Origin: Archaeoglobaceae archaeon
GTDB lineage: Archaea; Halobacteriota; Archaeoglobi; Archaeoglobales; Archaeoglobaceae
Assembly (NCBI GenBank): GCA_015520485.1
Contig: WAPX01000019.1
Span: 1 to 37,558, forward strand
Direction of reading: 5' to 3'
DNA length: 37,558 nucleotides
Below are positions 640 to 3,817 of the stretch, one piece after another (the stretch's first letter is position 1; every line of letters begins with the position of its first letter). Below the pieces are notes generated by a model that was not told where the DNA came from, searched no databases, and saw only the letters and a list, made by a program, of their open reading frames with translations. The translations under genes and the position numbers were made by a program.

Positions 640-990
640 ATGAGAAAACTCTTTGTCGCTTTATGCATCGCACTCGTTCTGTCAGCTGTGGTAATTCTTG
701 CAATTGCTGACGAACAAGTCGTTGTAGCAGGTGAAATGGGAAGCTCACACCGATCAAACGTTCTGCCAGTTAACGGCACGTGGAAGCGTGCTCCGCAGAA
801 CCCGAATACCGCTTACATAGCAGTCTATTCTCCTGAAAAGAAGTTTAGCACGTGTGTGGAAAACGCTCTCATTAAAGCTGTTCGCGCGCACGGACTTAAA
901 CCGGTTCCCGCTGAAAACGTGTCTGAATACGACCTGAAGGGCAGGATTGTGTGGATATTTCACCGCCAGCACGAGCGGACGCGCAGTTAA
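640..990 (+). CDS. Small secreted or membrane-anchored protein, possibly a truncated fragment
   Basis: A 116-residue protein that begins with a clear signal peptide or membrane anchor: basic MRK followed by a hydrophobic stretch to about residue 23. The rest (residues 25-105) is a soluble, mixed alpha/beta-looking segment with VVVAGEMGSS near the start and YIAVYSPEKKF in the middle. I do not recognise the family. The last ten residues (FHRQHERTRS) look unlike the preceding sequence, and the stop overlaps the 3' end of the convergent AI-2E permease gene by four bases. The gene may therefore be the 5' part of a longer gene that has lost its 3' end. It sits beside a dead transposase, which fits local rearrangement. 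An AT-rich stretch just upstream (626-637) may hold promoter elements. Confidence 0.55.
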   Translation: MRKLFVALCIALVLSAVVILAIADEQVVVAGEMGSSHRSNVLPVNGTWKRAPQNPNTAYIAVYSPEKKFSTCVENALIKAVRAHGLKPVPAENVSEYDLKGRIVWIFHRQHERTRS

Positions 991-1997
991 GAGAATTCAG
1001 CAGTTAATCCGGCGTTTCCGTAGTGGGAGTAAATTGCGGTCAAAACAGCAACAACTGTTGGTGCAGCAAAAAAGCCGAGAATGCCTCCGGCCATGGCACC
1101 CCCTATGAAGGAAATTAACAGCAGTAGAGGGTGGATTTTGCTCGCGTATCCGACGAAGTAAGGTCTCAGAATAAGCTCTGGAACGATGTACATGAACACA
1201 ATTCCTGTTACCAAAAACCACATGGCAGTAACAAAATTTGTAACTGCGAGAAATGCAGCGATGGGCAAAATCACCATCCACTCAGCAAATACGGGAATTA
1301 AAGCGGCTAAAAACATCAGACCGCTGAGCATCGGTATGTACGGAACTCCAAAAATCAGAAAGTAGGGCACGCTCAGAATGCCTATTAACACGGCAAATGC
1401 GAAATTTCCGAACCACAAGGATATGAGCGTTTCGTCTATTCTCCTGAGCAAATCCACAGCCTCTCCTCTCCACCTCTCCGGAACCATGGCAACGATACTG
1501 CTTAACAACCTGTTTCCGTCGCACAGAGCGTAAAAACAGACTATTGCCGAGACGAGAAAGTTCATCAGGAACGTTAAAAACTTTACAGTAAAATTAAAAA
1601 ATGATGTTTTAATGTAATTCTCCACAAAATTCTCAATCTTTGGCAGATAAGAGAGAATGTAGCCCGAATACCTCTGCAGCTTTGCCCCTGTCAGAATTTT
1701 TACAACAATCGCTCTCAGCTCAGTTCTGTGGGTCAGCAGGTAAACGAGCTGTGTCAATCCCTGAAAAAGCCCGTAAAACATCAGAAAGGATACCGGTAAC
1801 AGTATGATGAGCGTGGACACCAAACTTGAATAAAAGTTACCCATCCTGCTGTCAAGTTTCGTTTTCACGGGTTTTGCCACGTAGGCAAAAGCGAAGCCCA
1901 TGGCTATGCCATCGAGAAGTGGAAAGGAAAAGTACACAAAAAACAGAAAGAGGACTAACGCAGCTATTAAAACTAAAGTCTTAAAGTTCTTTTCCAT
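987..1997 (-). CDS. AI-2E family (UPF0118) membrane permease
   Basis: A 336-residue integral membrane protein of the AI-2E/TqsA/UPF0118 family (PF01594). Members of this family export or exchange small solutes, and a few act as Na+/H+ antiporters; the substrate here cannot be read from sequence. Hydrophobic segments lie at about residues 7-35, 60-85, 140-165, 195-250, 255-285 and 290-320, separated by the charged central region usual for the family (RWRGEAVDLLRRIDETL). The length matches family members of 330-370 residues. It starts 42 bases after the stop of the actin-like gene and may be the last gene of that transcript. Family assignment is firm; biological role is not known. Confidence 0.85.
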   Translation of the reverse strand: MEKNFKTLVLIAALVLFLFFVYFSFPLLDGIAMGFAFAYVAKPVKTKLDSRMGNFYSSLVSTLIILLPVSFLMFYGLFQGLTQLVYLLTHRTELRAIVVKILTGAKLQRYSGYILSYLPKIENFVENYIKTSFFNFTVKFLTFLMNFLVSAIVCFYALCDGNRLLSSIVAMVPERWRGEAVDLLRRIDETLISLWFGNFAFAVLIGILSVPYFLIFGVPYIPMLSGLMFLAALIPVFAEWMVILPIAAFLAVTNFVTAMWFLVTGIVFMYIVPELILRPYFVGYASKIHPLLLLISFIGGAMAGGILGFFAAPTVVAVLTAIYSHYGNAGLTAEFS

Positions 1998-2039: not shown

Positions 2040-3017
2040 TTAACCTTCTCTCGTCTTCGCAGCTATTAAACAGCCTCTTGCAACGCTGAACAGCGGGTCT
2101 CTTGCAACTCTTATCTCGGAAACGTTAACAGGCAGTCCAATTTCGTTCAATCTTTCGTCAAACAGTGCTTTGAAACCTCTCGGCTTGGACGTTCCACCTG
2201 CAAGAACCACTGGAAATTCGACTGCAGGAGGTGTAACCTCTGCGAGTTTTCTTGCGAGGTTCTCGACTATGTTCGATATCAGCTGGTCGTAGTATATGGC
2301 AAGAGCGCCCTCAACGCTTCCGAGCTCGACCTCTCTTTTCAGCTCGAAACCACTCTCCTTTATCGCACACACTTGCTCTCTCGACATTCCGGTAGCCTTG
2401 GCAACGTTTTCGTCTATCCAGTCTCCACCTTTTGCTATGCTGAAGGAAACGATGGGTGCTGCGAAGTACGCTGCCGTTACGTTTGTCATTCCAGCTCCAA
2501 AGCTGATACCTATTCCGGTAAAACTTGTATCTGCGAGCTCTGAATACACAACTGCCAGCCCCTCATCTATCACGTACGGTGTGTACCCTATCTTCTTTAT
2601 CAGCGCCTCCATAGTCTTCCTGTGGTAGAGAACCTCTATGTCAGAGTCTATGGGCTTTGCCGGAGAGGATATGCAAACAGTCTCTCCAGCGTACTCCGGA
2701 GAGCCAACGACCTTTTCTATCAGCAGCTTGATAATCGGAATTGCCTCTTTCTCTTCCGGACTCAAAACACCAGATTTCATTGGTCTTCTCGTGCTCTTCT
2801 TGAAGACAGTTGCAAACCTGAGAGCGTCATCTCCAAGAACGTATATTTTGTTCCCCTTTATGACGTAAGCAACTCTCGCGTTGTCGAGCATCATCTTCGT
2901 CATTTCGTTGTAATCCAGCTCGAGAAAAGCATTCCTCTGCTGAACGAAAACGATCTCATCTCCTTCCATTTCGGAGCATATTATGTTCATAGTTCCTACA
3001 TCCAGACCCTTTGACAT
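2040..3017 (-). CDS. Archaeal actin/MreB/ParM-like ATPase
   Basis: A 325-residue protein of the actin-Hsp70 ATPase fold. The phosphate-1 loop is at residues 5-9 (LDVGT), phosphate-2 in GISFGAGMTNV at about 170-180, and the adenosine motif in VLAGGTSKPRGF at about 270-282. The size matches prokaryotic actin-like proteins such as Thermoplasma Ta0583 or ParM rather than Hsp70. Such proteins polymerise to position plasmids, organelles or the cell envelope. The start is supported by a strong GGAGGTG ribosome binding site seven bases upstream. The gene follows a four-helix membrane protein by 11 bases, so the two are very likely co-transcribed; I infer that the membrane protein anchors or regulates the filament. 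No named archaeal orthologue can be assigned from sequence alone. Confidence 0.8.
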   Translation of the reverse strand: MSKGLDVGTMNIICSEMEGDEIVFVQQRNAFLELDYNEMTKMMLDNARVAYVIKGNKIYVLGDDALRFATVFKKSTRRPMKSGVLSPEEKEAIPIIKLLIEKVVGSPEYAGETVCISSPAKPIDSDIEVLYHRKTMEALIKKIGYTPYVIDEGLAVVYSELADTSFTGIGISFGAGMTNVTAAYFAAPIVSFSIAKGGDWIDENVAKATGMSREQVCAIKESGFELKREVELGSVEGALAIYYDQLISNIVENLARKLAEVTPPAVEFPVVLAGGTSKPRGFKALFDERLNEIGLPVNVSEIRVARDPLFSVARGCLIAAKTREG

Positions 3018-3028
3018 TCGAACACCTC

Positions 3029-3817
3029 CTAAAAACTCTTACCCGAAATTTCAGAACTCTTACCCCTGATTTTGCTTTCCTCAATCATCTTCAGGACTTT
3101 GGCAGCGTCATCCACTTCTTCAACTTCTTTCTTCCTCACTCTCTTTCCACCCTCCTTCAGCTTCCTGAGCTCCTCTGCCTCAGGAACATTATCTTTGACT
3201 CTAACCACGTTTCCTCTGTAATTCCCGTCTTTCAGTGCAACACCAACCTCAAAGTCCAATTTTGGCTCTACTATTTCTATGTCGAGCAGTTTATCGAAGT
3301 CTGGCTCTATTAGCTTCGCACTTTCAAGGTCTATTTCGGACTCTATTTCCTTTTTAAGCTTCTTTTTCTCAGCATAGGTGGTTGGAGCGGGTTTCTCTCT
3401 CTTTATTTCGATTACCGGTGTTTTTTCCAGCAGCCTCAGAACAGCCTCGGCAAAGGAGCTGCTGAAGAAAAGTACGAGACCTATTGCGTAAAGCAGCGCC
3501 ACGTAAACGACCTGAGGGTAGTACCAGTAATTTGGATACATTGCAACGAACAGTACAACTGCCAGAGTCGTCAGAATGAATGCCGCTACTGTTGCTAGTC
3601 TGTATCGCTTAAAGCCGTACATTGCGTTTACTCCGTACAGTGCAAGAGGAATTGCGAGGCCGATAATTACTGCTGTAACTTCTATCTGCGTCGGATTCGA
3701 ATATCTGTTTATCTGAAAAATCGCTATGAGAGCAAGACCTATAACTACGAGAAAGACTCCAACCGCAAAAATCAGTGAGGGTAGATAGTACTCCCTGTCC
3801 CGCCGTCCCCGTCCCAT
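3029..3817 (-). CDS. Four-helix membrane protein with charged cytoplasmic tail, actin-gene partner
   Basis: A 262-residue protein with a basic N-terminus (MGRGRRDR), four predicted membrane helices at about residues 12-33, 45-67, 73-93 and 101-125, and then a soluble tail of about 135 residues. The tail is dominated by Lys and Glu (EKKKLKKEIESEIDLESAK, later KEGGKRVRKKEVEEVDD) and ends in a likely helical segment. By the positive-inside rule the tail is cytoplasmic. I do not recognise a family. The gene is the first of a probable operon with the actin-like ATPase directly downstream, which makes the tail a plausible docking site for that protein. A TATA box lies at 3842-3849, only about 25 bases before the start codon's presumed transcript start. 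Confidence 0.65.
   Translation of the reverse strand: MGRGRRDREYYLPSLIFAVGVFLVVIGLALIAIFQINRYSNPTQIEVTAVIIGLAIPLALYGVNAMYGFKRYRLATVAAFILTTLAVVLFVAMYPNYWYYPQVVYVALLYAIGLVLFFSSSFAEAVLRLLEKTPVIEIKREKPAPTTYAEKKKLKKEIESEIDLESAKLIEPDFDKLLDIEIVEPKLDFEVGVALKDGNYRGNVVRVKDNVPEAEELRKLKEGGKRVRKKEVEEVDDAAKVLKMIEESKIRGKSSEISGKSF

Follow-up and report, generated by a model that had tools for sequence, protein, structure and literature searches.

What is a four-helix membrane protein with a long charged tail doing immediately upstream of an actin-like ATPase in an archaeal genome, and do the two proteins act together? The question is raised by a locus in the 37,558-nucleotide stretch of DNA analysed here (hereafter the window), which is contig C19 of the 1.57 Mb genome G000 of an archaeon of the family Archaeoglobaceae. 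The reading order on the minus strand is MetG (assigned from its sequence rather than by a profile scan), QueC, a gap of 137 bases, the membrane gene, 11 bases, the ATPase gene, 42 bases and an AI-2E-type permease gene. The features relevant to the question are as follows.

987-1997, minus strand: AI-2E-type permease, 42 bases downstream of volactin
2040-3017, minus strand: volactin (actin-like ATPase), 325 amino acids; Pfam PF25216, 446.9 bits
3018-3031, minus strand: stop codon and intergenic gap with the Shine-Dalgarno sequence AGGAGGTG; from the sequence
3029-3817, minus strand: DUF7139 membrane protein with volactin-type tail, 262 amino acids, candidate anchor; Pfam PF23600, four hydrophobic segments
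3032-3436, minus strand: putative cytoplasmic tail (residues 128-262), the kind found together with volactin; tail profile match and co-occurrence
3155-3256, minus strand: core tail motif, residues 188-221 (DFEVGVALKDGNYRGNVVRVKDNVPEAEELRKLK); order with volactin predicted from residues 181-216 at locus L156
3840-3859, minus strand: BRE/TATA-like element AAAGCGATACCTTTATATCC; similar element in loci of the same genus

The junction of the two genes reads TAG-GAGGTG-TTCGA-ATG on the minus strand, the strong Shine-Dalgarno sequence overlapping the stop codon of the membrane gene and standing five bases ahead of the volactin ATG. This agrees with the first-pass annotation of the locus, which had described two genes 11 bases apart with a strong ribosome binding site between them. 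The BRE/TATA-like element lies inside the 137-base gap, its end 22 bases from the start codon of the membrane gene, and a similar element is found upstream of the membrane gene in all five named loci of the genus of the window (L152-L156). Since this promoter-like element directly precedes the membrane gene in the genus, the gene pair probably has a promoter of its own. On the plus strand, a 116-residue open frame with a signal-like N-terminus (640-990) runs towards the AI-2E gene and shares 4 bases with its end; a family search with this frame returned no confident family.

Judged by its sequence, the ATPase is a volactin, in the same family as the dynamic actin of Haloferax volcanii that acts in cell shape. 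Its residues 1-320 match positions 1-321 of the 321 positions of PF25216 with the score given above (cut-off 35), which places it in the same Pfam family as VolA of H. volcanii (HVO_2015) over the whole length. The Pfam and NCBIfam models of MreB, Salactin, FtsA and crenactin score far below volactin on this protein, that of Salactin reaching 12.7 bits, under its cut-off of 27.1. Salactin of Halobacterium salinarum, described in the accessible text of PMC10869688 and PMC10746226 as a dynamically unstable haloarchaeal actin attached at the cell poles, belongs to a separate Pfam family. For fold comparison, the model of the volactin of locus L156, 97% identical to that of the window, was used in its place. 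The predicted chain has an actin fold, with MamK as the top match (5ljv, Z 27.2, rmsd 3.0 over 296 residues) and a Z of about 25 for MreB and eukaryotic actins; FtsA and PilM structures are also among the matches, ranked under MamK and MreB. The matches include the RodZ-MreB structure (PDB 2wus).

The suggestion of the first-pass annotation that the system is undescribed is thus not valid for the actin, which is volactin (PF25216; PMC10869688). According to the accessible text of PMC10869688, volactin of H. volcanii is probably essential, dynamic and required for timely disk formation, and forms long filaments in vivo with fast growth and collapse; the filament tips are reported to bind the membrane, and unknown factors that bind volactin are invoked there. 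In compressed, tissue-like H. volcanii cells volactin is up about 1.6-fold, and the appearance of delta-volA cells in the same later paper suggests that volactin may not be strictly essential (PMC7617734, accessible part). The literature search on volactin listed no study on Archaeoglobaceae.

Residues 2-127 of the membrane protein match DUF7139 (PF23600; 51.5 bits versus a cut-off of 30). Four hydrophobic segments, at about 15-33, 45-63, 74-92 and 103-121, and a tail of 135 residues bear out the architecture first proposed for it. By the positive-inside rule, the positive charges found at the N-terminus and in the loop joining helices 2 and 3 would place the tail in the cytoplasm. Its richness in Lys and Glu, emphasized earlier, is real in the window (K or E at 33%) but is not a general trait: composition is lineage-specific, the haloarchaeal tails being acidic, and it is motifs that are conserved instead. 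In alignments read by eye, these are an acidic helix like DEEIxRDIEEA, then a core, then a helix like VDxxTxxLxEL, with a C-terminus that is often basic or hydrophobic; the core resembles GKAFxESRGxxxRVKDDIxEAxxL in many non-halophiles and RSSGVDxQVxGLKGLKGG in halophiles. Comparison of the DUF7139 membrane part with PDB folds gave no confident match (best E 0.2, leukotriene C4 synthase), and no RodZ model appeared in the Pfam and NCBIfam rows that the protein gave at E up to 1.

Volactin and tail-bearing DUF7139 proteins co-occur almost exactly. In a sample of 392 genomes of the phylum, volactin was present over the PF25216 cut-off in 90, with 13 further genomes that have weak matches to its C-terminal part alone counted as negative. 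The tail, searched as a separate profile (A3, built from 52 rows, each of a linked gene), was detected in 87 of these 90 genomes and in none of the 302 genomes without volactin over the cut-off. The tail-less volactin genomes are G134, where volactin stands at the start of a contig and is broken into pieces with stops; G307, 59% complete and with 263 bases upstream of the gene; and G328, with a 153-residue fragment. The DUF7139 family was found in 134 of the 392 genomes (E up to 0.001; 123 over its own cut-off), and 47 of the 134 lack volactin over the cut-off; as a whole, therefore, the family is not volactin-specific. The first-pass annotation had made the functional link depend on the membrane protein not being often found without the actin: the tail-bearing subfamily is not found without it (none of the 302 genomes), whereas the whole family often is (47 of 134). 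The Fisher p for the co-occurrence, 1.8e-84, is overstated, as the genomes are related and not independent; more telling are the genera g11, g47, g49, g60, g64 and g94, each of which mixes species with both proteins and species with neither. Haloferax volcanii, the control genome, has both families.

The arrangement of the genes is also far beyond chance and recurs across the phylum. The membrane gene lies upstream of volactin on the same strand in 76 of the 86 assessable volactin genomes, with gaps of -8 to 173 bases (median 80.5); the four of the 90 that could not be assessed are G376 and G307, with 91 and 263 bases upstream, and the fragments G328 and G134. The tail-bearing gene of G376 is on a different contig. 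The 10 unlinked genomes, nine of genus g47 and G281, gave no rows to the tail profile and all have a tail-bearing DUF7139 gene elsewhere, so operon inheritance alone is insufficient to account for the association. Of the 80 named loci, 76 extend far enough upstream to be judged: in 70 the membrane gene is linked within 400 bases (gaps -17 to 308), in four it lies within 3.1 kb, and the 8 kb flanks of the other two (L198, L223) contain no DUF7139. The 8 Thermoplasmatota loci in this set are all linked, and in several methanogens volactin and the membrane gene overlap by 8 or more bases. The Haloferax loci share the gene pair in seven of eight cases (gaps 105-127 bases), the eighth beginning 91 bases upstream of volactin, and the volactin literature, in its accessible text, names no upstream membrane partner of VolA. 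The same four plasmid records that carry volactin carry an adjoining membrane gene, annotated as a hypothetical protein in three and as a permease in one. The actin-like gene and the membrane gene, first brought together from a single locus, are in this way confirmed as a conserved pair for the tail-bearing protein.

The AI-2E permease, which had been considered possibly part of the same transcript, is not upheld as part of the unit. In a survey of 126 related loci, 80 of them named and 46 unnamed (tblastn E up to 1e-8, flanks of 4-8 kb where the contig allows, some loci from the same genomes), it was found near volactin in four, all from the genus of the window, of which a fifth locus ends about 290 bases past volactin; it was rejected as a third member. 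QueC and MetG occur near volactin in 5 and 4 of the 126 loci, respectively, and are likewise limited to this genus. A third generally conserved neighbour was also rejected after the 30 largest frame clusters around the 80 named loci had been read by eye: these comprise volactin, DUF7139, frames overlapping those two and neighbours mostly confined to haloarchaea, and DUF7139 is the only gene among them that accompanies volactin across lineages. A separate observation concerns Haloferax: in 8 of 8 loci (L202, L204-L207, L211, L212, L215) volactin is followed after a few hundred bases, on the same strand and about 1.5-1.6 kb past the volactin start, by a gene for a CetZ tubulin-like protein, so that this genus has cytoskeleton genes of the actin and tubulin kinds side by side. 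Two of the loci were scanned (CetZ_C, Tubulin) and the other six identified by a motif that none of the remaining 72 named loci showed.

What distinguishes the DUF7139 proteins that accompany volactin is the tail. A tail HMM was trained on the 116 linked tails and scored on 73 non-linked DUF7139 proteins, among which one protein of genome G023 is counted twice (L032 and L150). The scores are bimodal: 42-154 bits for the 116 linked tails, which are the training set, 96-119 bits for 15 of the 73 non-linked proteins and at most 1.7 bits for the other 58. Each of the 15 comes from a locus or genome with volactin, but 11 were fetched on purpose from volactin genomes, and the unbiased test is the genome search with profile A3. 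The clean split also partly reflects the definition of the class, the profile having been built solely on linked tails. The tail of the window matches the profile with 73 bits (E 2.4e-20, window 3041-3376), a score by construction, as this tail is itself a profile row; with volactin adjacent in the same genome, the protein fits the volactin-type tail subfamily as defined here. The 12 lowest linked scores (42-76 bits) all belong to the window's own family, so the tail motif is weakest there.

DUF7139 proteins without the volactin-type tail have the homologous four-helix domain and occur in genomes with and without volactin. Those listed include proteins with Cys-rich ends, long repeat proteins, short forms of 169-203 residues and an ATPase fusion; the three that were scanned carry DUF7140 (the Cys-rich end), DUF1508 (the repeats) and T2SSE modules. 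The fusion is the G023 protein (L150:229-2163), from the family of the window and a genome with no volactin over the cut-off, in which a DUF7139-like domain (27 bits in the translation used here, 32 bits in another search) is joined to a T2SSE type II/IV secretion ATPase. Haloarchaea have DUF7139 proteins of 896-979 residues, one of them read as 609 residues (L309-L313, L317-L321, L330-L336), and the DUF1508 modules are those of the scanned L313. In a tree of the membrane domain (92 of 189 rows, 130 columns) the tail state changes three times, at least two of them by well-supported branches; with so few columns the tree cannot date the origin of the tail.

Structure prediction offers a view of what the tail may do. 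At locus L156, from the genus of the window, the gap between the genes is 12 bases long and in frame, and reading one stop as glycine gives a single chain of the membrane protein, five linker residues and volactin in their natural order. AlphaFold2 modelled this chain with a mean pLDDT of 82.8 and a pTM of 0.66. Tail blocks 181-190, 191-200, 201-210 and 211-220 have pLDDT values of 80, 82, 84 and 69 and contain a six-residue strand (197-202) and a helix (206-215), compared with 45, 44, 55 and 56 and no strand for the membrane protein alone, in a comparison of one species with one run each and alignments of 63 (joint) versus 51 (alone) DUF7139 rows. In the joint chain, blocks 131-180 and 221-260 are at 36-55; a later tail helix, in block 231-240, has 47 there but reaches 69 in the membrane protein by itself. 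The ends (11-39 residues) of most separate DUF7139 rows strayed into volactin columns of the joint alignment, and the five-residue linker may favour spurious contact, the read-out being pLDDT and secondary structure. The core tail motif is predicted to become ordered on volactin, and most of the strand should pair with volactin, because the tail has just one other strand-like pair (184-185). A helix at 206-216 is also drawn for the membrane protein alone, at low confidence, and its prediction with and without volactin slightly lowers our confidence that the protein is an anchor. The contact between tail and ATPase whose prediction had been proposed as a check is favoured by this one comparison of a joined chain, judged by pLDDT and strand rather than by contact scores.

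The pairing of an actin with a dedicated anchor is already known in bacteria, as volactin is in Archaea. In the RodZ-MreB system, the actin homologue is contacted by a dedicated membrane protein through its cytoplasmic part; RodZ crosses the membrane with a single helix and has a helix-turn-helix domain. The pair described here is alike in plan and would work in a similar way, but DUF7139 differs in having four helices and an extended tail. In PilM-PilN and FtsA-FtsN, an actin-fold ATPase binds a short stretch of the cytoplasmic tail of its membrane partner; the membrane proteins and the processes are other ones, and volactin is nearer to MamK and MreB.

From the conserved arrangement, the shared distribution and the predicted ordering of the tail motif, we regard it as rather probable that the two genes encode an actin filament together with a membrane protein dedicated to anchoring or nucleating it. 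The DUF7139 protein would sit in the membrane via its four helices and offer a largely flexible cytoplasmic tail, the conserved motif of which would dock on volactin, probably by beta-strand addition. Docking would capture volactin at the membrane and perhaps nucleate or cap it. Such capture would explain why filaments in Haloferax bridge the cytoplasm with their tips on the membrane; we infer that anchoring or nucleation takes place at filament ends and that the outcome is control of cell shape as in H. volcanii.

The main rival to the anchor is a sensor or regulator. DUF7139 might sense the state of the membrane and, carrying no load itself, control volactin polymerization, for instance by holding monomers back or setting off disassembly. 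Regulation would be a fitting task for a tail that is largely flexible and has a single short binding motif, and the unrelated modules of the three scanned tail-less proteins are what would be expected of a general membrane or sensor head; the fast growth and collapse of volactin in H. volcanii (PMC10869688) and its changes under compression (PMC7617734), as given in the accessible text of these papers, point the same way. However, attachment of the tips to the membrane requires some anchor, and DUF7139 is the sole gene beside volactin across lineages in the 30 clusters read by eye around the 80 loci, so that we consider a purely regulatory role unlikely, if worth keeping in mind.

It is less likely still, and in our opinion improbable, that volactin is a local actin-fold adaptor under a DUF7139 membrane complex, its filament form being secondary. 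Actin-fold proteins that bind the tails of membrane proteins do exist, as in PilM-PilN and FtsA-FtsN, and structures of FtsA and PilM are among the fold matches, but both are outranked by MamK and MreB, and the 30 largest clusters contain no further generally conserved membrane gene beside the pair. Moreover, volactin makes long filaments in vivo (PMC10869688, accessible text). That DUF7139 is a transporter merely sharing an operon with volactin might be supposed from its several helices and from the permease annotation in the Natrinema plasmid record CP031304.1. We give this little credence: the helices are only four, the best PDB fold match (E 0.2) is not confident and the tail goes with volactin even where, as in 10 genomes, the genes lie apart.

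More distant volactin-like proteins also came to light. Eleven haloarchaeal genomes (L138-L148; ten of family f20, one of f30) encode a second, giant volactin-like protein of 711-1187 residues, whose N-terminal volactin domain shares at best 31-37% identity with the normal volactins used for comparison and is followed by a long Pro-poor, acidic, coiled-coil-like stretch and, at the C-terminus, by one to three hydrophobic segments (8 of the 11 have two). This layout resembles that of an actin which anchors itself. Normal volactin and the tail are present in all 11 genomes as well, and a large DUF7139 protein is present in all of them and in six further genomes that were fetched. Volactin relatives 33-41% identical are encoded by 65 IMG/VR loci (L232-L296), three of which were scanned and matched Pfam Volactin with 252-261 bits; DUF7139 was not found in the fetched flanks of these putatively viral loci. 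A relative also occurs in the uncultured phage records LR745208.1 and LR756511.1 (485 and 595 kb), and a weak one in a third record. Twenty-eight positions are conserved (93% or more) in 135 cellular volactins but not in 56 virus-borne ones.

Returning to the anchor, we suggest tentatively, and with less confidence than in the anchor itself, that the pair arose before Archaeoglobi, methanogens, haloarchaea and some Thermoplasmatota diverged. It would then be a general actin-membrane system in which tail-bearing DUF7139 nucleates and holds the ends of volactin filaments at the membrane and the cytoplasm-spanning cable links membrane sites mechanically or positionally, some haloarchaea having added a self-anchored fusion.

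The actin is a known one; for its membrane partner, a search of accessible literature found no description under DUF7139, HVO_2014 or HVO_2016. The DUF7139 membrane protein is a strong candidate for the partner that volactin filaments have so far lacked at the membrane. In the best-studied shape-shifting archaeon the actin is volactin, which is reported to be probably essential and attached to the membrane by its filament tips. A membrane protein that strictly accompanies it and carries a defined candidate binding motif would turn the tie between actin and membrane in Archaea into a direct experiment in Haloferax, and may provide a non-homologous counterpart to RodZ for comparing the evolution of actin anchors.
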